DNA from: Streptomyces sp. NBC_01497
GTDB taxonomy: Bacteria; Actinomycetota; Actinomycetes; Streptomycetales; Streptomycetaceae
Length of the DNA stretch: 64,000 nt
Assembly: GCF_036250695.1 (NCBI RefSeq)
Contig: NZ_CP109427.1
Coordinates: forward strand, 7,378,001 to 7,442,000
Reading direction: 5' to 3'
A program made the position numbers and the translations under genes. The notes under the pieces are model-generated. The model worked only from the letters and a program-made list of their open reading frames with translations. It made no database searches and was not told the origin of the DNA. Shown piece after piece: positions 54,215-64,000 of the stretch (the first letter of the stretch is position 1; every line of letters begins with the position of its first letter).

Positions 54215-55042
54215 ATGACGCAGACCGACGCGAGCGGCACCGCCCCCCACCCCTCAGGCCGCCCGGGCGGCCTCGCCGGTCTCGACCTGCGGGGCCGCAC
54301 CGCCCTCGTCACCGGTGCCGCGAGCGGCATCGGCAGGTCCTGCGCGCTGCGGCTCGCCGCCGCCGGGGCGAGAGTCAGGGCGCTGGACCGGGACGCGGCG
54401 GGGCTCGACGCGCTGACCGCCGCGTACGCCGCCGGCGGTGACGGGAGCCTGGCGGCCGAGGTGCTCGACCTCACCGACCTCGACGCCGCCGAACGCGCGG
54501 CGGCCGGCGCGGACATCCTCGTCAACAACGCCGGGCTGCAACTGGTGAAACCCATCGAGGAGTTCCCCGGCGAGGTCTTCCACACCGTGCTCACGGTGAT
54601 GCTGGAGGCGCCGTTCCGGCTCATCAAGGGCGCGCTCCCGCACATGTACGCGTCCGGGTGGGGCCGGATCGTCAACATCTCCTCGGTGCACGGGCTGCGT
54701 GCCTCGCCCTACAAGTCCGCGTACGTGGCCGCCAAGCACGGCCTGGAGGGGCTGTCGAAGACCGCCGCGCTTGAAGGCGCGGCCCACGGGGTGACCTCCA
54801 ACTGCGTCAACCCCGCCTACGTACGCACGCCGCTGGTGGAGCGGCAGATCGCGGACCAGGCCGCGGCGCACGGCATCCCGGCGGAGCGCGTGGTGCGCGA
54901 GGTGATGCTCACGGACACGGCGCTCAAGCGGCTGCTGGAGCCCGAGGAGGTCGCCGAGGCCCTCGCGTACCTGTGCACGGAGCAGGCGTCGTTCATCACC
55001 GGCTCGTCGCTGCCGCTGGACGGTGGCTGGACCGCGCACTGA
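54215..55042 (+). CDS. SDR family dehydrogenase, 3-hydroxybutyrate dehydrogenase-like
   Basis: 275 residues. ~25-residue leader, cofactor loop TGAASGIGRS (about 35-44), NNAGLQLV, catalytic Ser in NISSVHG, and Tyr/Lys in SAYVAAKHG. The C-terminal RLLEPEEVAEALAYLCTEQA and FITGSSLPLDGGW fit 3-hydroxybutyrate dehydrogenases. It would oxidise D-3-hydroxybutyrate to acetoacetate with NAD, but related SDRs use other hydroxyacids. Alone, terminator directly after it. Confidence 0.87.
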   Translation: MTQTDASGTAPHPSGRPGGLAGLDLRGRTALVTGAASGIGRSCALRLAAAGARVRALDRDAAGLDALTAAYAAGGDGSLAAEVLDLTDLDAAERAAAGADILVNNAGLQLVKPIEEFPGEVFHTVLTVMLEAPFRLIKGALPHMYASGWGRIVNISSVHGLRASPYKSAYVAAKHGLEGLSKTAALEGAAHGVTSNCVNPAYVRTPLVERQIADQAAAHGIPAERVVREVMLTDTALKRLLEPEEVAEALAYLCTEQASFITGSSLPLDGGWTAH

Positions 55043-55116: not shown

Positions 55117-55803
55117 TCAGCGGCCGGGCTCCGGTGGGAGCGGGGCGAGCGCGGCGAACGCGCCGTCGTGGTGCACGAGCGCGGGACCCGAGTGATGGCC
55201 GCCGCCCCGCTCGACCTCGCCCACCACCAGCAGGTGGTCGCCGACCACCTGACGCAGGGTCACCTTCGCGGTGAGCCACGCGGGTACGCCGTCGAGGAGC
55301 GGCAGCCCGTCCTCACCCACCGTCCAGGACGCGCCCGCGAAGCGGTCGACGCCGCTGCGCGCGAACCGCGTCGCGAGCGCCGTGTCGGCCGTGCCGAGCA
55401 CATGGACGGCGAACCGGTCCGCCGCGCGGACCGCCGCAACCGTCGAGGCCGTGAGCCCCAGGCAGAACGAGACGAGTGCCGGGTCGAGCGAGACCGAGGT
55501 GAACGACGTCGCGGTGAAACCGGCGGGGCCCGGCACGGTGATCACCGTGACACCCGACGCGTGGCGCCGCAGCGTGCGCCGCAGGACCGCACCGCTGTGC
55601 CCGCCCGGACCGGTGGCCGGTGGGCGATGACCGGGCGAGGCGGCCTCCTGCCCCGCCGCCTCGCGGACGGGGTGCTCGCGGGTGGTGCTCTCACGGGCTG
55701 TGCGGTCACGGGTCGCGGTCTCACGGCCCGGGGTGTCGCGGGTCGCGGTGTCGCGCGTGCTGTGCTCACGGGCGGCGGGGGAGTGCTGCGCGGAGACGGT
55801 CAT
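55117..55803 (-). CDS. Flavin reductase of the organosulfur-type cluster
   Basis: 228 residues. An unusual ~65-residue leader of Arg/Glu/Thr/Asp repeats (TRDTATRDTPGRETATRD) precedes a normal flavin reductase domain: RRTLRRHASGVTVIT, GFTATSFTSVSLDPA, and FHVHHDGAF-type end (LVHHDGAFAALAPL). It would supply FMNH2 to the SsuD-like and DszC-like enzymes upstream. ATG 55803 has GGGAAGAAG; an in-frame ATG at 55872 overlaps the hydrolase stop and would add 23 residues. Confidence 0.87.
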   Translation of the reverse strand: MTVSAQHSPAAREHSTRDTATRDTPGRETATRDRTARESTTREHPVREAAGQEAASPGHRPPATGPGGHSGAVLRRTLRRHASGVTVITVPGPAGFTATSFTSVSLDPALVSFCLGLTASTVAAVRAADRFAVHVLGTADTALATRFARSGVDRFAGASWTVGEDGLPLLDGVPAWLTAKVTLRQVVGDHLLVVGEVERGGGHHSGPALVHHDGAFAALAPLPPEPGR

Positions 55804-55868
55804 GCCGCTTCTTCCCTTCGAGGAGGACGGTGCGGGCGGGTCCTGGCGGCGGCGCGGGCCGGCCGCCT

Positions 55869-56615
55869 TCATGCGTCGGTGAGGGTGAGCAGCGGCCGTG
55901 CCGCGCCGTTCGCGCGCAGCCGCTCCAGCCAGAGCACGACCGTGGCCGCCGTGGTGCGGTGCGTGATGTCGTTGAGGGTGTCGTGCACCCCGCCGTGCAC
56001 CACACCGAGCGCGGCGCCCGGCAGGCGCCCGGCCCGCCGCACCGCCTCCTCCAGGGGGGTGACCGGGTCCGCGTCGCCGTGCAGCAGCAGGACGGGGACC
56101 CCGGGCACCGCCTCGGCGCGCAGCGAGTCCGGCACCGGGTCGGCGAGGCCCCCGCGTACGAACACCTCGTCACCGCTCAGCCGCGCCCGGTGCGTCGGGC
56201 AGGACGTACGGGCGGCCAGTTCGGCGTCCCAGCCGGCGTCCCTGTGCCGTGTGCCGCCGGGCCCGGTGGGCGCGGTACCCGCCGCCACCACGGCGTCGAT
56301 CCGCGGCGCGGACTCGCGCGAGGCGGCGGCGTGCAGGGCCTGGAGCGCCCCCGTGTCGGAGCCCACGAGGACGACGGGTGCCACCGGGTCGGGTCCCGCC
56401 GCCGTGTGCGCGGCGGCCAGCACCTCGGCCGGCCCGTCCTCGGGACGGACGGGGACCGCGTGCACCACATAGCCGTCGAAGGCGAGGCGCCTGCCGAACC
56501 GCTCGTACACCAGCGGGTGTTCACCCCGGCCGGGCAGGACGAGCAGGGTGCCGCGCGGGGCGATGCCCGCCGGCGGGTGCCAGCCGGCGCGCGCGGGGGA
56601 GGACGTCACGGTCAT
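55869..56615 (-). CDS. Alpha/beta hydrolase with Asp in the nucleophile position
   Basis: 248 residues, alpha/beta hydrolase fold. TLLVLPGRGEHPLVYERFG gives the oxyanion region; the nucleophile elbow reads VGSDTG, so the residue in the Ser place is Asp87, as in haloalkane dehalogenases and epoxide hydrolases. LLLHGDADPVTP supplies the acid and VVHGGVHDTLND the His. The ATG at 56615 overlaps the stop of the monooxygenase (ATGA). Role probably a hydrolytic step on the oxidised substrate. Confidence 0.85.
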   Translation of the reverse strand: MTVTSSPARAGWHPPAGIAPRGTLLVLPGRGEHPLVYERFGRRLAFDGYVVHAVPVRPEDGPAEVLAAAHTAAGPDPVAPVVLVGSDTGALQALHAAASRESAPRIDAVVAAGTAPTGPGGTRHRDAGWDAELAARTSCPTHRARLSGDEVFVRGGLADPVPDSLRAEAVPGVPVLLLHGDADPVTPLEEAVRRAGRLPGAALGVVHGGVHDTLNDITHRTTAATVVLWLERLRANGAARPLLTLTDA

Positions 56616-57850
56616 CGGGTGCTCCCCGCGGTGGCGGGCCGCGCCGCGGTTGCCGCGCGGTGCGCCAGCTCCTGGCGGACGAGCGGCAGCAGGTGCCGGC
56701 CGTAGTCGATGGCGTCGTCCAGGGGGTCGTATCCCCGGATCAGGAGGGTCGTCGCGCCGATGTCGACGTAGTCGAGCAGGGCCCGTGCCACCGTCTCCGG
56801 AGTCCCCACGAGGGCGGTGGTGTTGCCGCCCGCGCCCGTCGCCGAGGCGGTCGGTGTCCACAGCGCGCGATCGTGCAGGTCGCCCTTCGCGGCGGCGGCG
56901 AGCAGCCGCCGCGAGCCGGCGTTCTGCGGCGCCCCGAGCTGCGGGCCGCGCCGCGCCTGGTCGAAGAACGCCCGCCCGGAACCGGACTTGATGGTGTCGA
57001 GGATGCGGTGTGCCCGCTCCCAGGCGAGCTCCTCGGTGGCGCCGAGGATCGGCCGGAACGACACACTGATACCGGGTCGTCCGGCGCGTCCGGCTTCAAC
57101 GGCCGCCGCGCGTACGGAGGCTATCTGCTCCGCCGTCTCGGCGAGGGGTTCGCCCCACAGCGCGAACGTGTCCGCGTGCCTGCCGCCGACGCGGTACGCG
57201 GCGTCGGAGGATCCGCCGAAGTACAGCGGGATGCCGGTGCCATGGACCGGTGGCACCCCGTTCGCGTAGTCCTCGAAGCGGTAGTGGCGGCCCTCGTGGC
57301 TGAACGGTTCCGGCGACGCCCAGGCGCGGCGCACGATCGACAGGTACTCGTCCGTGCGGTCGTAGCGCTCGTCCTTGTCCAGGAAGTCGCCGTCCCTGCG
57401 CTGCTCGGTGTCGTTGCCGCCGGTGATGATGTGCACGGCCACCCGGCCGCCGGTGAACTGGTCGAGCGTCGTGAACGTACGGGCCGCCAGGGTGGGCGCG
57501 ATGAACCCGGGCCGGTGCGCGACGAGCAGACCGAGGCGCTCGGTGTGTGCCGCCACGTATGCCGCGACCTGCACCCCGTCGGGGCGCCCCGAGCTGTAGC
57601 CGATGAGGATGCGGTCGAAGCCCGCGTCCTCGTGGGCCCGGGCGAAGCGCGCGGTGTAGGCCCGGTCGATGGCGGGACCGCTCGGCGCGTGGGTCTCCGA
57701 GGCGTGCTGGGTGCCGATCATGCCGATGAACTCGACGGTGGTGGGAGCGGCGGCCCCGGCCGCCGGCGCGTCGCTGGGCGCCCCGGGCGCCGGTGTGTCC
57801 CGCGCGGGTGTGCCGGCTCCGGGCGTGCTGGTCGTCGGTGTGCTGGTCAT
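56612..57850 (-). CDS. SsuD-like FMNH2-dependent monooxygenase (LLM class)
   Basis: 412 residues, luciferase-like TIM barrel. Several stretches follow alkanesulfonate monooxygenase SsuD: GFDRILIGYSSGRPDG, LVAHRPGFIAPTLAARTFTT, GGNDTEQRRDGDFLD, IPLYFGGSSDAAYRVGG and FALWGEP. With FMNH2 and O2 it would cleave a C-S bond (or oxidise a related compound). ATG 57850, GAAGGGGAA upstream. It sits two bases after the DszC-like gene and overlaps the hydrolase gene. Confidence 0.92.
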   Translation of the reverse strand: MTSTPTTSTPGAGTPARDTPAPGAPSDAPAAGAAAPTTVEFIGMIGTQHASETHAPSGPAIDRAYTARFARAHEDAGFDRILIGYSSGRPDGVQVAAYVAAHTERLGLLVAHRPGFIAPTLAARTFTTLDQFTGGRVAVHIITGGNDTEQRRDGDFLDKDERYDRTDEYLSIVRRAWASPEPFSHEGRHYRFEDYANGVPPVHGTGIPLYFGGSSDAAYRVGGRHADTFALWGEPLAETAEQIASVRAAAVEAGRAGRPGISVSFRPILGATEELAWERAHRILDTIKSGSGRAFFDQARRGPQLGAPQNAGSRRLLAAAAKGDLHDRALWTPTASATGAGGNTTALVGTPETVARALLDYVDIGATTLLIRGYDPLDDAIDYGRHLLPLVRQELAHRAATAARPATAGSTR

Positions 57851-57852
57851 GG

Positions 57853-59121
57853 TCAGTTCCCCTTCTGGGTACGGGATGTGGTGGCGGGCGGGGTGCCGTG
57901 CGAGGTGGCGGCGGGGGAGCCGGGCGCGGCACGGTCGAGGACCGCGCCGCCGAGGGCGAGGAGCACGGAGTCGTCCTGCGGGGTGTGCACGCGGGAGCAC
58001 AGCACGTCGCGGTGGTGGCGCTGGAGCGGGTTGGCCCGGGTCAGGCCGTGGTTGCCGGTCAGTGCGACGGCCGCTTCCACGGCGCTGATCGCCGCGCGGG
58101 TCGCCAGCACCTTGATGGCGCCCGCCTCCCGCGCCGCCTCCGCGTCCCCCGCGTCGACGCGCCGGGCGTAGGTGTCCACCAGCGTGTCGGCACCGAGCAG
58201 GGACGCCTCGATCTCACCGACGGCCGTCCGGAACCGGGGCAGGGTGGCGAGCGGTGCGCCGAGCGCGGTCGGCACGCGTTCGTGCAGGAAGCCGGTCAGC
58301 CAGTCGAGGGCCGCGCGCGCGACGCCGAGGTAGAGGGCGGGCAGGCCGAGCGCGTTCCACGCGCCGGTCACCGCGTCCGGGCGGGCGCCGGGGGTGTCAC
58401 CGGCCGGCGCGAGGTGGAGCACGTCGTCGAGCGGTACGCGTACGGAGTCGAGGACGACGTCGTCGCTGCGGCTGGCGCGCAGACCGACATGGTCCCAGGT
58501 CGGCTCCACGGTGAGGCCGGGCCTGCCGGCCCTGACGACGAACGAGCCGACGCGCACGGGGTCCTCGTCGGTCCTTGCGAAGACGAGCAGGTGGCTGAGG
58601 CCCACCGCGCCCGTCGAGTAGATCTTGCGCCCGGTCAGCCGCCAGTTCCCGCCGTCCCTGCGGGCGGTGGTCGCGGGCAGGCCCCCGCGTACGGGGCTGC
58701 CGAGTTGGGGTTCCACCCGCAACGCGTTGACCAGTGCGGGCCCTTCGGCCGACGCGGCGAGGAGCTCCGCGTAGGCGGCCCCGGGCCAGCTCGGTGTACG
58801 GGCCTCGGCGGCATGGGTGAACAGGGTCATCGCGCTCACCAGGGCGACGGCCGGGTCGCCCGCGCCGAGCGCGCGCAGGATGCGGACCGTGTCGGCGAGT
58901 GAGGCGCCGGGGCCCCCGTGCCGGGCGCCCACCGTCGCGGTCAGCAGCCCTGCGGCGTGGACGTGCGCGAACCCCTCGTAGGGGAAGGTGGCGTCGCGGT
59001 CGTGCTCCGCGGCCCGCTCGGCGAGGGCGGCGGTGACGGCGGGCAGCCGCCCGAGGTCGAGGGGCGGGGGCGACCCGCCCCTGAGGGGTGGTGTGTCGGT
59101 GGTGGAGCGGGCACGGCTCAT
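57853..59121 (-). CDS. Acyl-CoA-dehydrogenase-fold monooxygenase, DszC/SfnB-like
   Basis: 422 residues, full acyl-CoA dehydrogenase fold: N-terminal helical domain (FPYEGFAHVHAAGLLTATVG), beta domain with SHLLVFARTDEDP, and C-terminal helical domain ending GNHGLTRANPLQRHHRDVLC. The catalytic Glu of true dehydrogenases is not apparent, and the NHGLTR-N-L-R-RD end is that of the DszC/SfnB/IBM-type flavin oxygenases that hydroxylate or oxidise sulfur compounds with FMNH2. ATG 59121 with GAGG. Confidence 0.85.
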   Translation of the reverse strand: MSRARSTTDTPPLRGGSPPPLDLGRLPAVTAALAERAAEHDRDATFPYEGFAHVHAAGLLTATVGARHGGPGASLADTVRILRALGAGDPAVALVSAMTLFTHAAEARTPSWPGAAYAELLAASAEGPALVNALRVEPQLGSPVRGGLPATTARRDGGNWRLTGRKIYSTGAVGLSHLLVFARTDEDPVRVGSFVVRAGRPGLTVEPTWDHVGLRASRSDDVVLDSVRVPLDDVLHLAPAGDTPGARPDAVTGAWNALGLPALYLGVARAALDWLTGFLHERVPTALGAPLATLPRFRTAVGEIEASLLGADTLVDTYARRVDAGDAEAAREAGAIKVLATRAAISAVEAAVALTGNHGLTRANPLQRHHRDVLCSRVHTPQDDSVLLALGGAVLDRAAPGSPAATSHGTPPATTSRTQKGN

Positions 59122-59133
59122 GGGACCTCGATC

Positions 59134-59163
59134 GGTGCGGGTGCGGGTGCGGGTGCGGGTGCG
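59134..59163. repeat. Five tandem GGTGCG hexamers
   Basis: Perfect (GGTGCG)5 just upstream of the DszC-like start, in the 199-bp gap after the transporter ATPase gene. A short-sequence repeat that can change length by slippage. Confidence 0.85.
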
Positions 59164-59320
59164 GCGGGGTGGTGCGTGGTCGCGGTCGCGGACCTGGGCT
59201 GCGGGGCGCGATGCCGCGCGTGTCGCCGGTCGTGACGGGGCTCGGCCGCTTGCCCGTCCGGCCGGGATCGCGCATCCGCCGACCGCCGGGGCGGGCGTAC
59301 GCGTGGACCGGCGGAGGACG

Positions 59321-60502
59321 TCATGTGCCCAGCCGGGTACGCCAGTTCGCCGCGTGGTGGCACGCGACGGTGTGCGGGACGGCCCGCCCCGGCGCTCCGG
59401 AGGCCGGACCACGCGCGGCACGCGAACTCGTGCCGCCTGCCGACGCGTTCACTTCGCCGCCCGTCGACGGCCCGCCGGGCAGCACCTCTTCGCTCCCGTT
59501 CCCGCCGGGCACCGGCTCGGCCGTGGGTTCCTCGACGCACTCCGGCCCCGCGAAGCGGCAGCGCGGCGCGAACACGCAGCCCCGGTCCTCGGGCCACGGC
59601 ACCCGGTCCGGATCGGGCCGCAGCAGCGCGGGCCGGGGCCCTCGCGTCCCCGCCACCCTGGGCGCGGACGCGGTCAGCAGCGCCGTGTACGGATGGCGCG
59701 GCGCGCTCAGCACGCCGTTCGCCGGACCGTCCTCGACGAGGCGGCCCCGGTACAGCACGGCCACCCGGTCGGCGATCCCCGCGAGCGAGCCGAGGTCGTG
59801 CGAGATCACCACCACCGCGAGGCCGAGTTCGGCGCGCAGCCGGTCCAGCAGTCCGAGCACCAGGTTGCGGTTGGACGCGTCGAGGGCGCTGGCGGGCTCG
59901 TCGGTGATGAGCAGGCGCGGCCGGGTCACCAGGGCCCGGGCGAGCGAGACGCGCTGTCGCTGCCCGCCGGACAGCTCGCCCGGGGTCCGGGGGCCCTGGA
60001 GAACGGGATCGAGGCCCACGAGGCCCAGGGCCTCGTCCGCGCGGGCCGCGCGTTCGCGGCGGTCGCCGGTCCGCGCGGCGGCGAGCGGCTCGGCGACGAC
60101 CGCGCGGACCGTCAGTTCCGGGTCCTGCGAGCGCAGCGGGTCCTGGAACATGTACTGCATCCGTCCCGAGCGGCGGAAGTCCCGCAGTTCCGCGCCGTGC
60201 GTCCGGGCCAGGTCGCGGCCCTCGAAGAGGACGCGGGCGCCCGGTTCCGGCCGTACGAGGCCGACGGCGGCGCGGGCCAGGGTCGTCTTGCCGGAGCCGG
60301 TCTCGCCGATGATCCCGACGATCTCCCCGGCCCGCACGGTGAGGCCGACGCCGCTCAGTACGCGGGTGGCCGGGCCGCGCGGGCGCGTGCCACCGCCGGC
60401 CGGCGTGCCGTACGAGACGGACAGTCCTGCGATGCTCAGCAGCGTCCCGTCCGCCCGCTCCCGTGGCGGGGACAGCACGCGCGACGCGGGTGCGGTGCTC
60501 AC
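59321..60502 (-). CDS. Opp/Dpp-type ABC transporter ATP-binding protein (second)
   Basis: 393 residues. Walker A GETGSGKTT, Q-loop QYMFQDPLRS, signature LSGGQRQRVSLARAL, Walker B LLITDEPASALD, H-loop ISHD. C-terminal oligopeptide-transporter region with cysteine cluster GCVFAPRC and FAGPEC, then a ~60-residue Gly/Ser/Ala-rich tail. GTG 60502 overlaps the stop of the first ATPase gene (GTGA). Pairs with it to power the importer. Confidence 0.93.
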   Translation of the reverse strand: MSTAPASRVLSPPRERADGTLLSIAGLSVSYGTPAGGGTRPRGPATRVLSGVGLTVRAGEIVGIIGETGSGKTTLARAAVGLVRPEPGARVLFEGRDLARTHGAELRDFRRSGRMQYMFQDPLRSQDPELTVRAVVAEPLAAARTGDRRERAARADEALGLVGLDPVLQGPRTPGELSGGQRQRVSLARALVTRPRLLITDEPASALDASNRNLVLGLLDRLRAELGLAVVVISHDLGSLAGIADRVAVLYRGRLVEDGPANGVLSAPRHPYTALLTASAPRVAGTRGPRPALLRPDPDRVPWPEDRGCVFAPRCRFAGPECVEEPTAEPVPGGNGSEEVLPGGPSTGGEVNASAGGTSSRAARGPASGAPGRAVPHTVACHHAANWRTRLGT

Positions 60503-61587
60503 GCGCTCGCTCCTTTCGGTGCGGGGGCCGACGTGGTGGCGCCCGTCGCCTGCCCGGTCTGCGGCGGGGCCGCGCGGTCGGGGTTTACGGGGTGCAGGCA
60601 GCGGGCCGTACGCCCGTCCTCGAAGGTGCGCGTGGCGACGGGCCCCGCCGTGCACTCGGACGTGACGTGGGCGCACCGTTCCGCGAACCGGCAGCCCGGC
60701 AGGTCGGCACCGGCCTCGGGCGGCCTGCCCGGGATGACGGCAAGGTCGCGCCGGTCCGCCGGATCGACGGACGCGACCCGCAGCAGGGCCTCGGTGTACG
60801 GGTGCGCCGGTGCGGCGAGCACCCGCGTCGTGGGGCCCTCCTCGACGATCTCGCCCGCGTACATGACGAGGACACGGTCGCAGTTCTCCGCGACCACTGC
60901 CAGGTCGTGGGTGACCAGCAGCAGGGCGAGCCCGCTGTCCTCGCGCAGCCGCCTCAGCAGCTCCAGGATCTCCGCCTGGACGACGACGTCGAGCGCGGTG
61001 GTCGCTTCGTCCGCGACGAGCAGCCGGGGCTCGCAGGAGACGGCGGTCGCGATGAGGACTCGCTGGAGCATGCCCCCGGACAGCTCGTGCGGGTAGCGCC
61101 GGTACACCTCGTCGGGCTCGTGCAGCCCTACGGCGGCCAGGAGTTCGACCGCCCTGGCCCGTGCCCAGGAACGCGAGAGGCCGCGCCCCACCCGGAGCTG
61201 CTCGGCGAGTTGCCGCCCCACGGTGAGGGAGGGGTTGAGGTAGGAGGCCGGGTCCTGGAACACCGCGCCGATCACCCGGCCCCGCACCCTGTTCCACTGC
61301 GCGCGGGTGTACGCGGTGAGGTCGGCGCCGGTCGCGGGCAGGCCGATGCGCCCGCCCGTGACCGCGCAGCCCGGTGGCAGCACACCGAGCACCGAGCGGC
61401 AGGTGAGGCTCTTGCCGCTGCCGGACTCGCCGACCAGACCGACCGATTCCCCGTCGGCCACGGTGAACGAGACGTCGCGCACGGCGCGAGCGCCCGAAGG
61501 GACACTCACGTCGAGCCCGTCGACGGACAACACCGTTTCCACCGGCCGCCGGGGTCGCACCGGCCGCTCATCAGCCCGTACTGACAT
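60499..61587 (-). CDS. Opp/Dpp-type ABC transporter ATP-binding protein (first)
   Basis: 362 residues. Walker A GESGSGKS at 53-60, Q-loop AVFQDPASYLNP, signature LSGGMLQR (Arg of the usual LSGGMRQR replaced by Leu), Walker B LLVADEATTALD, H-loop VTHD. C-terminal GCRFAERCAH cysteine region of peptide importers. ATG 61587 overlaps the preceding permease gene by 17 bases. Confidence 0.93.
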   Translation of the reverse strand: MSVRADERPVRPRRPVETVLSVDGLDVSVPSGARAVRDVSFTVADGESVGLVGESGSGKSLTCRSVLGVLPPGCAVTGGRIGLPATGADLTAYTRAQWNRVRGRVIGAVFQDPASYLNPSLTVGRQLAEQLRVGRGLSRSWARARAVELLAAVGLHEPDEVYRRYPHELSGGMLQRVLIATAVSCEPRLLVADEATTALDVVVQAEILELLRRLREDSGLALLLVTHDLAVVAENCDRVLVMYAGEIVEEGPTTRVLAAPAHPYTEALLRVASVDPADRRDLAVIPGRPPEAGADLPGCRFAERCAHVTSECTAGPVATRTFEDGRTARCLHPVNPDRAAPPQTGQATGATTSAPAPKGASA

Positions 61588-62545
61588 GGCTGTCCGCGTC
61601 CTGTTCACGGGCCGGGGACACCGGCTCGTCGTCGGCTGCCGGGGTGGGGAGCACCACCGGACGTGGGGGAGCGGGCGCCGCCACCGCCGTGCGCCGCGCG
61701 GAGCGCCGCCGGCTTGTGCCGGCCCGCCCGCCGGGCGCGGAGGCGTCCCGGATCGCGTCCGCGAGCAGGTTGAGGGCCCCGACCGTGATCATGATCGCCA
61801 CGCCGGGCACCAGCGGTGCCCACGGCTGCTGCGACAGGTAGCCGAGATCGGAGGCGAGCATGCCGCCCCAGGTGGGCGCCGGGGGCTGCACCCCGAGGCC
61901 GAGGAACGTCAGCGACGCGACGACCAGCAGCGCCTGCCCCATGGCCTGGGCCGTCGTCACCGCGATCGTCGGGAGGATCTTGCCCCACACGTGGGTCCGC
62001 AGGATCCAGCCCCGCGACGCGCCCATCAGCTCGGCGGCCTCCACGTACTGTGCCTGCCGCAGGCCGAGCGCGGCGGCCCGGGTGACGCGGAAGTACAGCG
62101 GGGCGAACAGGAGACCGAGGGCGAGCATCGCCTGGTGCACACCGTTGCCCAGCACCCCCACCACGGCGATGGCGAACACCGTGAACGGCATGATCATCAG
62201 GGTGTCGGCGGTGCGCTGCGACACCCACGCGAAACTCCTGCCGAACCACACGGACGCGAGACCTGGCAGCACACCGAGCACCAGCGCGGATCCGACGGCC
62301 TCCAGCGCGCCGACAATCGACGGGCCCGTGCCCGCGAGCACCCTGCTCAGCACGTCGCGGCCCAAGTAGTCGGTGCCCAGCAGGTGGTGGCCGCCGGGGC
62401 CCTGGAGCAGGTCCTCGGGCCGCTGTCCCAGCGGATCGTGCGGGGCCAGTGCCCCGCCCGCGACGGCCACGACGGCGATCAGCAGGAGCACACCGAGCGC
62501 CACTCGGGCGGACGGCCGGGTGAGTGTGCGGCGCAGTGTCCTCAT
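61571..62545 (-). CDS. Opp/Dpp-type ABC transporter permease (DppC-like)
   Basis: 324 residues, six membrane helices, DppC-type opening HDPLGQRPEDLLQGPGGHHL and the GTDYLGRDVLSR motif. The EAA loop is EAAELMGASRGWILRTHVW. A ~55-residue charged, Arg/Ala/Pro-rich C-terminal tail follows the last helix. ATG 62545 overlaps the stop of the DppB-like gene (ATGA). Confidence 0.93.
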   Translation of the reverse strand: MRTLRRTLTRPSARVALGVLLLIAVVAVAGGALAPHDPLGQRPEDLLQGPGGHHLLGTDYLGRDVLSRVLAGTGPSIVGALEAVGSALVLGVLPGLASVWFGRSFAWVSQRTADTLMIMPFTVFAIAVVGVLGNGVHQAMLALGLLFAPLYFRVTRAAALGLRQAQYVEAAELMGASRGWILRTHVWGKILPTIAVTTAQAMGQALLVVASLTFLGLGVQPPAPTWGGMLASDLGYLSQQPWAPLVPGVAIMITVGALNLLADAIRDASAPGGRAGTSRRRSARRTAVAAPAPPRPVVLPTPAADDEPVSPAREQDADSHVSTG

Positions 62546-63591
62546 GACGCGTCCCGCCGTTCCGGGCGCCGGCCCTGCCTGCTGCCGCCGCGTGCCGCCG
62601 GGTTGAGGGCGGCGAGCGCCGCGTCGACCGCGAGGTTCGCGATCAGCACGACAGCGACCGTGACCAGGAGTGTGCCCTGGATGACCGGAATGTCGTGCTG
62701 CTGGGCCGCCTGGAGGGAGAGCTGGGCGAGTCCCGGCAGGTTGAAGATCTTCTCGGTGACGACGGCGCCGCCGAGGATCACCGGGACGCTCATCCCGAGG
62801 ACGGTCAGCGCCGGTCCGGCCGCGTTGCGCAGCACGTGTCCGAACAGCACGCGGCGTGCGGTGAATCCGCGCATCTCCGCCCCCGTGACGTAGTTCTCGC
62901 GCAGCGCCCCGACGAGCGAGGTGCGCAACTGCCGGGCGATGGAGGCCGCCGCGTCGAGGCTGAGCGCGAAGGCGGGCAGCAGCGCGTACCGCAGCCATTC
63001 GCCGGCGCTCTGGTCGAGCGGCACGTACCCGCCGGTCGGCAGGGCACGGAACTGCACGGCGAACACCACGATCAGCACGATGCCGATGAGGAACGGCGGC
63101 AGGGTCGACAGCACGGAACACACCACCGTGACCGCCCGGTCGACGCGCCCGCCGCTGTGCAGCGCGGCCGTGATGCCCGCGCCGCCGCCGAGTACCACGG
63201 CGAACAGCAGCGCGAGCCCCGCGATCGAGAGGTCGACCGGCAGCGCCAGTCGCACACTGTCGGCGACCGGCACACTGGTGAACCAGGACGTGCCGAGGTT
63301 CCCCGTCAGCGCGTGCCCGAGCCAGTCGAGGAACTGACGGGGCAGCGGCTGGTCCAGGCCGAACTGGTGCTCCATCCTGGCGATGTCGGCCGGGGTCGCC
63401 GTGTCGCCGAGGACCGCGGCGGCCGGGTTCGCGCCGGACAGCGCGCCCAGGGCGAACGTGAGGACACTGGCCAGGACGAAGACCGTGCAGGTCGTGACCA
63501 GCACCCGGCCGGCGGAGCGCGGGGCACGGGCGAACCGGCCGCGCCATGCCGGGGCCCGGGGCGCCGGGGGCGCGAGCGGCTGAGCACTCAT
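62542..63591 (-). CDS. Opp/Dpp-type ABC transporter permease (DppB-like)
   Basis: 349 residues, six membrane helices in the DppB layout, GLDQPLPRQFLDWLGHAL after the first helix and GNLGTSW before the second. EAA loop ENYVTGAEMRGFTARRVLF. ATG 63591 overlaps the stop of the binding-protein gene (ATGA). Confidence 0.93.
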   Translation of the reverse strand: MSAQPLAPPAPRAPAWRGRFARAPRSAGRVLVTTCTVFVLASVLTFALGALSGANPAAAVLGDTATPADIARMEHQFGLDQPLPRQFLDWLGHALTGNLGTSWFTSVPVADSVRLALPVDLSIAGLALLFAVVLGGGAGITAALHSGGRVDRAVTVVCSVLSTLPPFLIGIVLIVVFAVQFRALPTGGYVPLDQSAGEWLRYALLPAFALSLDAAASIARQLRTSLVGALRENYVTGAEMRGFTARRVLFGHVLRNAAGPALTVLGMSVPVILGGAVVTEKIFNLPGLAQLSLQAAQQHDIPVIQGTLLVTVAVVLIANLAVDAALAALNPAARGGSRQGRRPERRDAS

Positions 63592-64000
63592 GCGACGGTC
63601 ACCCCCTCGAACCGCTGCACGACGGGGAACGGTGGAATGGGGGAGACCTGCGCGGTGCGGGCGAGGATGCGCGGCACGGTGTAGAGGAAGACGTTCGGCA
63701 TGGTGCGGACGGCGATGCCGGTGGCCTTGCGCAGTGCGGAGGGGTAGCCGGGTGAGTCGAGGGGTGTCCGGCTGACGGCGGCGATCGCCGCGTCCAGTTC
63801 ACCCGGGCTGCGGCGGGCCGGGTTCATCAGCCCCTGCCTCCCGAAGAGGACCTGGAACGCCTGGGTCGCGGACTCCCGTCCCGCGAACTGGTCCACGTAG
63901 AGGGACTTGCTGCGCTGCACGTAGACGAGTTCGGTGGCGCGGGCCGTCGGGACCGTCTCGATGGACGCCTTGATGCCGACCTTCGCGAGCTGTGCCTGGA
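63588..64000 (-). CDS. Family 5 extracellular substrate-binding protein, C-terminal part
   Basis: The last 136 residues of a peptide/nickel-type substrate-binding lipoprotein; the 5' part lies right of the window. Visible: QAQLAKVGIKASIETVPTAR and YVDQFAGRESATQAFQVLFG, then a C-terminal region with SPIPPFPVVQRFEGV. It is the first gene in the transporter cluster and would fix the substrate, but nothing in this part reveals it. Confidence 0.87.
   Translation of the reverse strand, partial: QAQLAKVGIKASIETVPTARATELVYVQRSKSLYVDQFAGRESATQAFQVLFGRQGLMNPARRSPGELDAAIAAVSRTPLDSPGYPSALRKATGIAVRTMPNVFLYTVPRILARTAQVSPIPPFPVVQRFEGVTVA

Follow-up and report, generated by a model that had tools for sequence, protein, structure and literature searches.

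We analysed a 64,000-nucleotide stretch of the Streptomyces sp. NBC_01497 genome (the window; C1:7378001-7442000, in a genome of 9.08 Mb and two contigs). At its end lies a nine-gene operon on the minus strand (55117-65162), encoding an ATP-binding cassette (ABC) importer, two flavin-dependent oxygenases, a hydrolase and a flavin reductase. The operon probably scavenges sulfur, importing an organosulfur compound and freeing its sulfur with the two oxygenases. Three kinds of sequence evidence point this way: a leader peptide related to NCBIfam family NF042934 precedes the operon, a gene for the alkanesulfonate monooxygenase SsuD lies inside or adjoining it in 12 of the 19 close relatives' loci, and sister systems combine such oxygenases with an SsuABC-type importer and a sulfurtransferase. 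The original prediction, made from the letters of the window, had proposed an organosulfur pathway, and these findings support it.

The nine genes are present with the families that had been claimed for them, as judged by open reading frame, NCBIfam and Pfam analysis. First in order is the binding-protein gene (SBP_bac_5; 63588-65162), which is truncated by the window end at 64000, so that only its 3′ part (63588-64000) is in the window; it is complete only past the edge, at L009:9589-11163, where L009 is a 20-kb stretch spanning the window edge and holding the part of the locus outside. There follow ABC permease 1, of OppB/NikB type (62542-63591), permease 2, of OppC/NikC type (61571-62545), two Dpp/Opp-type ATPases (ATPase 1, 60499-61608, with an alternative start at 61587; ATPase 2, 59321-60502), and a flavoprotein of acyl-CoA-dehydrogenase fold (57853-59121) that is probably an S-oxygenase dependent on reduced flavin mononucleotide (FMNH2). 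The last three genes encode a luciferase-like FMNH2 monooxygenase (LLM) of the SsuD/MsuD superfamily lacking the sulfonate-binding arginines (56612-57850), an alpha/beta hydrolase (55869-56615) and an HpaC/FerA-like flavin reductase (PF01613; 55117-55872), whose ATG at 55872 lies in a 4-nucleotide overlap with the hydrolase stop. The tight packing that had been described holds at most junctions: the overlap is exactly 4 nucleotides at five of them, 38 or 17 nucleotides between ATPase 1 and permease 2 depending on the choice of start, and the LLM and flavoprotein genes are separated by 2 nucleotides. It breaks between the flavoprotein and ATPase 2, where there is a gap of 199 nucleotides (59122-59320) that in relatives is occupied by a second LLM, a BisC-family molybdenum S/N-oxide reductase or both. 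The locus is moreover larger than the nine genes, continuing past the window edge.

Conservation and genomic company

Among 249 genomes of the family, a search with the flavoprotein found a match in 103. We fetched 20 of the 28 near-full-length matches found elsewhere at ≥63% identity as a close set, and 20 weaker matches as a second set. Of the 20 close-orthologue loci, 19 (L011-L029) hold all nine genes with their order unchanged; L030 has the flavoprotein only. A second LLM lies between ATPase 2 and the flavoprotein in 14 of these 19, and several relatives have the BisC-family enzyme in that gap (L027:7006-9432; also L020 and L021); the L027 protein, of 808 amino acids, scores 893 bits against a subfamily cut-off of 1018.

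In the Streptomyces sp. NBC_01497 genome SsuD is encoded on the strand opposite to the operon (L009:14248-15408). It falls somewhat under the NCBIfam cut-offs (467 against 510 bits for PRK00719, 456.8 against 518.2 for TIGR03565), and we call it SsuD because of its best match and because it has W195, R225 and R296 (MsuD numbering), all sulfonate-binding residues. The sister system was found in four of the 20 weaker-match loci (L036, L042, L044 and L045) and comprises genes for LysR, a hydrolase, a mercaptopyruvate-sulfurtransferase-like protein, SsuC, SsuB, SsuA-like proteins, an LLM, a flavoprotein and a GlcD-like oxidase (gene families tested on L036).

As a control set we took 17 loci (16 weaker matches and L030) with a flavoprotein homologue and no LLM of the same clade. 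At E 1e-10, Rrf2, cupin, thioredoxin-fold protein, hydrolase, SsuD, BisC, SsuB and SsuC each matched none of the 17; permease 1 and the binding protein had one match apiece (L049). The LLM-free weaker homologues sit in other neighbourhoods; it is only such flavoprotein paralogues, and no copy of the cluster, that lie beside clearly non-sulfur pathways, the finding that was to have counted against the prediction. A 50-57% flavoprotein homologue occurs by itself, with no LLM nearby, in a conserved neighbourhood (L031, L034, L040 and similar loci).

This company also bears on another reading, two-component hydroxylation of a non-sulfur natural product or xenobiotic. Both oxygenase superfamilies also carry out N- and C-oxygenation, and one of the flavoprotein's better matches in the PDB is a nitrososynthase; the association with the leader peptide, SsuD, sulfurtransferase and SsuABC argues against it, and we judge it very improbable.

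A scan of genome contigs with the LLM alignment gave at least 526 relatives, of which the best 80 were kept (L051-L130). These 80 come from Streptomyces, Actinacidiphila, Streptacidiphilus, Kitasatospora, Dactylosporangium, Amycolatopsis, Actinoplanes, Pseudonocardia, Saccharopolyspora, Frankia, Actinokineospora, Nocardia and others, with a few alphaproteobacteria; the nearest named loci are from Streptomyces. A phylum-wide single-protein search, in which 4 candidates per genome were scored, found one of 396 genomes (the window's own), a result that we do not read as absence elsewhere.

Predicted operator and leader peptide

Beyond the binding-protein gene, L009 encodes a thioredoxin-fold protein (Thioredoxin_5; L009:11783-12793; best PDB match the YjbH-type 6ghb), an Rrf2 regulator (L009:12793-13203) and, on the strand opposite to the operon, a cupin (L009:13344-13898). 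The motif CPW[AS] is present in 28 of 30 distinct thioredoxin-fold sequences, and the Rrf2 protein of this genome has two cysteines, 27 and 60. Two side observations concern the outer neighbours. A urease-like set (accessory genes and large subunit, judged by eye) follows SsuD on the opposite strand at L009:16233-19999, and at the other end the operon adjoins a 3-hydroxybutyrate-dehydrogenase-like short-chain dehydrogenase/reductase gene on the opposite strand (window 54215-55042), for which no match was found in the relatives' loci L011-L029.

A palindrome, AATGGATGTCAAGATGTGTCCATT in this genome, occurs in all 14 of the divergent cupin/Rrf2 gaps from which the motif was derived (a first dyad search upstream of Rrf2 was dominated by coding sequence); the predicted operator before Rrf2 is at L009:13257-13280, outside the window. 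A related and more symmetrical site, approximately ATGAGACACCNNNNGGTGTCCATT, is present in the interval from the thioredoxin-fold gene to the binding-protein gene in 25 of 25 loci (22 without duplicates), the predicted operator of the importer operon here being at L009:11748-11771, also outside the window. The training set held four of the 25 sites (five with a duplicate) and left out that of this genome. Operon-site scores range from 14.8 to 35.6, with 29.9 in this genome, against 9.9 for the best of 24 mononucleotide-shuffled 20-kb sequences. The operator is also found before importer-less LLM genes in L056, L062 and L064 (Streptomyces rugosispiralis, iranensis and endocoffeicus), which are perhaps remnants of the operon, before a flavoprotein-LLM pair in L057 and, mostly as weaker sites, in Amycolatopsis, Actinokineospora and Nocardia loci. 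Genome-wide, with up to two mismatches, the pattern gave 449 matches against 292 for a reversed control, and is therefore not specific enough to define a regulon outside the locus; the operon site is one of two exact matches.

Overlapping or directly following the operon site is a short open reading frame that ends in RTSSALCR or close variants, present in 24 of the 25 loci (21 of 22 without duplicates; not in L029). Here it reads HPGVVCRYVDFLRTSSALCR (24-36 codons; L009:11639-11713, C1:7443638-7443712, start maybe 11749); leader and operator together occupy L009:11639-11771 (C1:7443638-7443770), outside the window. An upstream cysteine (VVCRYVD) is found in 19 of 23 readable copies, being absent from L015, L061, L065 and L112. 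The leader matches NF042934, a 'putative leader peptide' family, through the C-terminal 13 model positions only, and on this sequence evidence is treated as a relative of the family, not a member. NF042934 itself scores above its cut-off at five places in the genome, all upstream of sulfur-type genes: a ThiS-like gene with cysteine synthase, cysteine dioxygenase with rhodanese, SsuE (221 bits, cut-off 164), a nitrite/sulfite reductase gene, and the SsuD of the locus. By analogy with mycobacterial polycysteine leaders, for which cysteine-dependent attenuation is described (PMC9031893), the open reading frame is possibly a cysteine attenuator. The sequence 3′ of it is poorly conserved, and an Rfam scan of L009 gave a single match, far under the gathering score (21.5 against 40 bits).

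Oxygenases and hydrolase

The LLM had been described as SsuD-like. It does belong to the SsuD/MsuD superfamily, and its best NCBIfam and PDB matches are SsuD/MsuD; the likeness does not extend to the sulfonate site. MsuD is described as gripping sulfonate via W195, R225, R296 and the backbone of residue 299, with sulfite not measurable for the variants R225A, R296A and W195A (PMC8234197). In a MAFFT alignment (MsuD numbering), the 38 cluster LLMs, counting the second LLMs, all retain W195, R77, Y127 and S178, and in each of them R225 is replaced by Ser, H227 by Arg and R296 by Thr or Ser; R225 and R296 are both retained in the 13 SsuD proteins of the same alignment. HMMER alignments place R225 as MAFFT does, and the loop of the profile has no Arg. 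The cluster LLM keeps most flavin-site residues and, because both sulfonate arginines are replaced, is unlikely to grip sulfonate; from its residues, cleavage of a sulfone or sulfoxide C-S bond is likelier than sulfonate cleavage. Its scores fall under the cut-offs for SsuD (207.7 against 510 bits for PRK00719, 207.5 against 518.2 for TIGR03565) and for SfnG (129.4 against 382.95 for TIGR04021).

These residues bear on the possibility that the operon serves sulfonate use only, with the LLM acting as a further alkanesulfonate monooxygenase and the importer taking up sulfonates broadly. The LLM's best matches, the true SsuD adjoining the operon and the sister loci with SsuABC importers speak for it. 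We nonetheless rejected the LLM as a second SsuD, given the replacement in every cluster LLM of two arginines whose alanine variants left MsuD without measurable sulfite; its PRK00719 score is less than half the cut-off, and a pure sulfonate route would need no oxygenase of acyl-CoA-dehydrogenase fold. Sulfonate use alone is accordingly an unlikely explanation.

The flavoprotein, described earlier as DszC/SfnB-like, has the acyl-CoA-dehydrogenase fold of those enzymes and misses the cut-offs of both families (116.3 against 430.9 bits for SfnB, TIGR04022; 47.5 against 850 for DszC, NF043015). In the PDB, MsuC and DszC are under 50 bits (MsuC 6u76, 46.7), and the nearest entries are 5z8t and 5gj7 (203.5 bits for 5z8t), two unnamed acyl-CoA-dehydrogenase-type-2 proteins, followed by acyl-CoA-dehydrogenase and nitrososynthase-like enzymes.

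The hydrolase has a monoacylglycerol-lipase-like fold: its predicted structure (mean predicted local distance difference test score 91.2) matches monoacylglycerol lipases best (E 5.4e-13). In this model Asp87 (GSDTG) is at the strand-helix turn, the nucleophile elbow, in the position of the serine in those lipases. The protein thus lacks the Ser in GxSxG that defines serine hydrolases of the S33/monoacylglycerol lipase kind, despite sharing their fold. None of Asp87, Asp183 and His211 varies among the 23 aligned sequences.

Importer exchange and the proposed pathway

All five importer proteins pass Pfam gathering scores (SBP_bac_5, two BPD_transp_1 and two ATPases with oligo_HPY), and the importer belongs to the Dpp/Opp/Nik ABC family. 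The binding protein matches 11 NCBIfam families, in each case under the cut-off. Its alignments to solved structures, among which YliB (GsiB glutathione-binding family) is second nearest, end ahead of the C-terminal part, and in that region its divergence from two other SBP_bac_5 proteins is too great for a ligand reading.

For an importer survey we used 98 distinct LLM proteins, having removed six that were identical to others or contained in them, with tblastn thresholds: 36 loci have a Dpp-type importer, 36 an SsuABC-type importer and 26 no recognised importer. The LLM tree, built by a quick method and containing several long branches, needs three importer changes, two of them forced by starred branches, so the two types appear to have been exchanged at least twice. 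Importer type is therefore a poor guide to substrate, and the original step from a Dpp-type importer to a peptide-like or S-substituted cysteine substrate is rejected as an inference. Companions are shared unevenly: in the 36 Dpp and 36 Ssu loci, respectively, after duplicate removal, we counted hydrolase in 30 and 25, flavoprotein in 31 and 16, flavin reductase in 28 and 8, Rrf2 in 18 and 19, cupin in 18 and 26, thioredoxin-fold protein in 22 and 5, second LLM in 19 and 2, BisC in 15 and 4, SsuD in 15 and 10 and sulfurtransferase in 0 and 9. The module is therefore not kept whole everywhere, least on the Ssu side. Plasmids show further combinations. On Pseudonocardia pBCI1-2 the LLM and flavoprotein are joined to a two-permease ABC importer (a peptide-type build, from annotation), with a 'lysophospholipase' gene close by and a rhodanese-like gene ∼8 kb off; on a Bradyrhizobium plasmid they accompany a one-permease ABC importer, with cysteine dioxygenase ∼10 kb off.

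A substrate of peptide-like, S-substituted cysteine or glutathione-conjugate type, taken up and broken down as in the Bacillus subtilis CmoO/CmoJ and ScmK routes, would still suit the Dpp-type importer, the rank of YliB and the use of LLM enzymes in those routes. The Cmo and Scm routes use N-acetyltransferase and deacetylase families, and family scans found none in the cluster; the same cassette stands beside SsuABC-type importers in over a third of the loci surveyed; and the LLM scores 44 bits against YtnJ, which we take to be CmoJ, as compared with 186 against MsuD. We consider such a substrate improbable.

Several observations count against sulfur scavenging. Some of the operon's relatives do without a recognised importer, even if some of those loci are on short contigs, and nothing but its position ties the operator to Rrf2. 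The leader is under the NF042934 cut-off of 27 (16.5 bits here, 22.5 in L028, 17.4 in L074), and the nitrite/sulfite reductase gene behind one of the five places could be a nitrite reductase. Among the places below the cut-off, which include L137, L139 and L140, two could be assigned a gene: a 25.3-bit place precedes a glutathione S-transferase-like gene, and a 22.3-bit place (L138) precedes a gene resembling a cation symporter by eye; because these places are not cleanly sulfur-like, a low leader score proves nothing alone, and the conservation of the leader across loci is the stronger argument. A terminator scan after the leader gave no hairpin on the operon strand and one site on the other. 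The cluster LLMs also change N104 to His and the phosphate-binding H123 to Lys, both conserved in MsuD; the flavoprotein is closer to 5z8t and 5gj7, for which a literature search found no function, than to DszC or MsuC; and the BisC-family reductase of some relatives is expected to oppose oxygenation.

Under sulfur scavenging, shortage of cysteine or sulfate would switch on the importer operon through Rrf2 at the palindromic operator and read-through past the cysteine-type leader. The importer, judging by its class, would take up a small soluble organosulfur compound, and the flavin reductase, by its family role, would feed FMNH2 to both oxygenases. The flavoprotein may then oxygenate the sulfur, turning a sulfide or sulfoxide into a sulfone or a sulfinate into a sulfonate; the LLM would cut the C-S bond of a sulfone or sulfoxide, not of a sulfonate. 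True SsuD, whose gene neighbours the operon here and in many relatives lies inside or alongside it, would free sulfite from the resulting sulfonate, and the hydrolase may trim substrate or intermediate with aspartate as its nucleophile-position residue. The order of reactions and the roles of the hydrolase and the molybdenum reductase are proposals. More tentatively still, and with doubt prevailing, the locus may represent a widespread cassette with interchangeable importers, in which two clades without an assigned function so far, an LLM clade with Ser/Thr for the arginines and one of acyl-CoA-dehydrogenase fold, perform a new C-S cleavage on an organosulfur compound of soil that lies outside known pathways, together with an Asp-nucleophile hydrolase and in some cases a molybdenum S-oxide reductase.

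The logic resembles the dimethylsulfone route described for Pseudomonas and Acinetobacter (SfnG, MsuC, MsuD/SsuD, MsuE/SsuE; PMC13352529), which likewise combines an LLM, an oxygenase of acyl-CoA-dehydrogenase fold, SsuD and a flavin reductase; here, however, the LLM and flavoprotein are under the SfnG and SfnB cut-offs, a dedicated ABC importer, hydrolase, Rrf2 and leader peptide are present, and the substrate probably differs too. The Dsz 4S pathway (DszA, DszB, DszC) also pairs a DszC-fold flavoprotein with a C-S cleaving LLM, but the flavoprotein here is far from the DszC cut-off, none of the nine genes is DszB-like and there is an ABC importer. SsuABCDE shares with the locus an ABC importer, an FMNH2 monooxygenase, sulfur-type control and true SsuD, and differs in that the importer here is of Dpp/Opp type and the operon LLM lacks the sulfonate-binding arginines. 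The B. subtilis Cmo (S-alkylcysteine) and Scm (S-succinocysteine) systems likewise salvage organosulfur compounds with an LLM C-S monooxygenase; apart from the acetyltransferase and deacetylase families mentioned above, the LLM branch differs by score. In Rhodococcus on dibenzothiophene, SsuA, SsuB, TauA and TauB are among the raised proteins, and the words 'dipeptide' and 'peptide ABC' are absent from that report (PMC8557817). We found no published account of the cluster, operator or leader among titles and abstract openings, a coverage that mostly excludes subscription journals.

To our knowledge, the actinobacterial enzymes that free carbon-bound sulfur are only partly known. Soil sulfur is given as >95% organic, chiefly sulfate esters and sulfonates (PMC4267179). 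Because the same enzymes pair with two unrelated importers, the locus cautions that importer type alone does not reveal substrate. Its regulation is directly testable, since the repeated operon has a predicted operator and leader peptide, and it offers two oxygenase clades and an unusual hydrolase as candidates for C-S cleavage.

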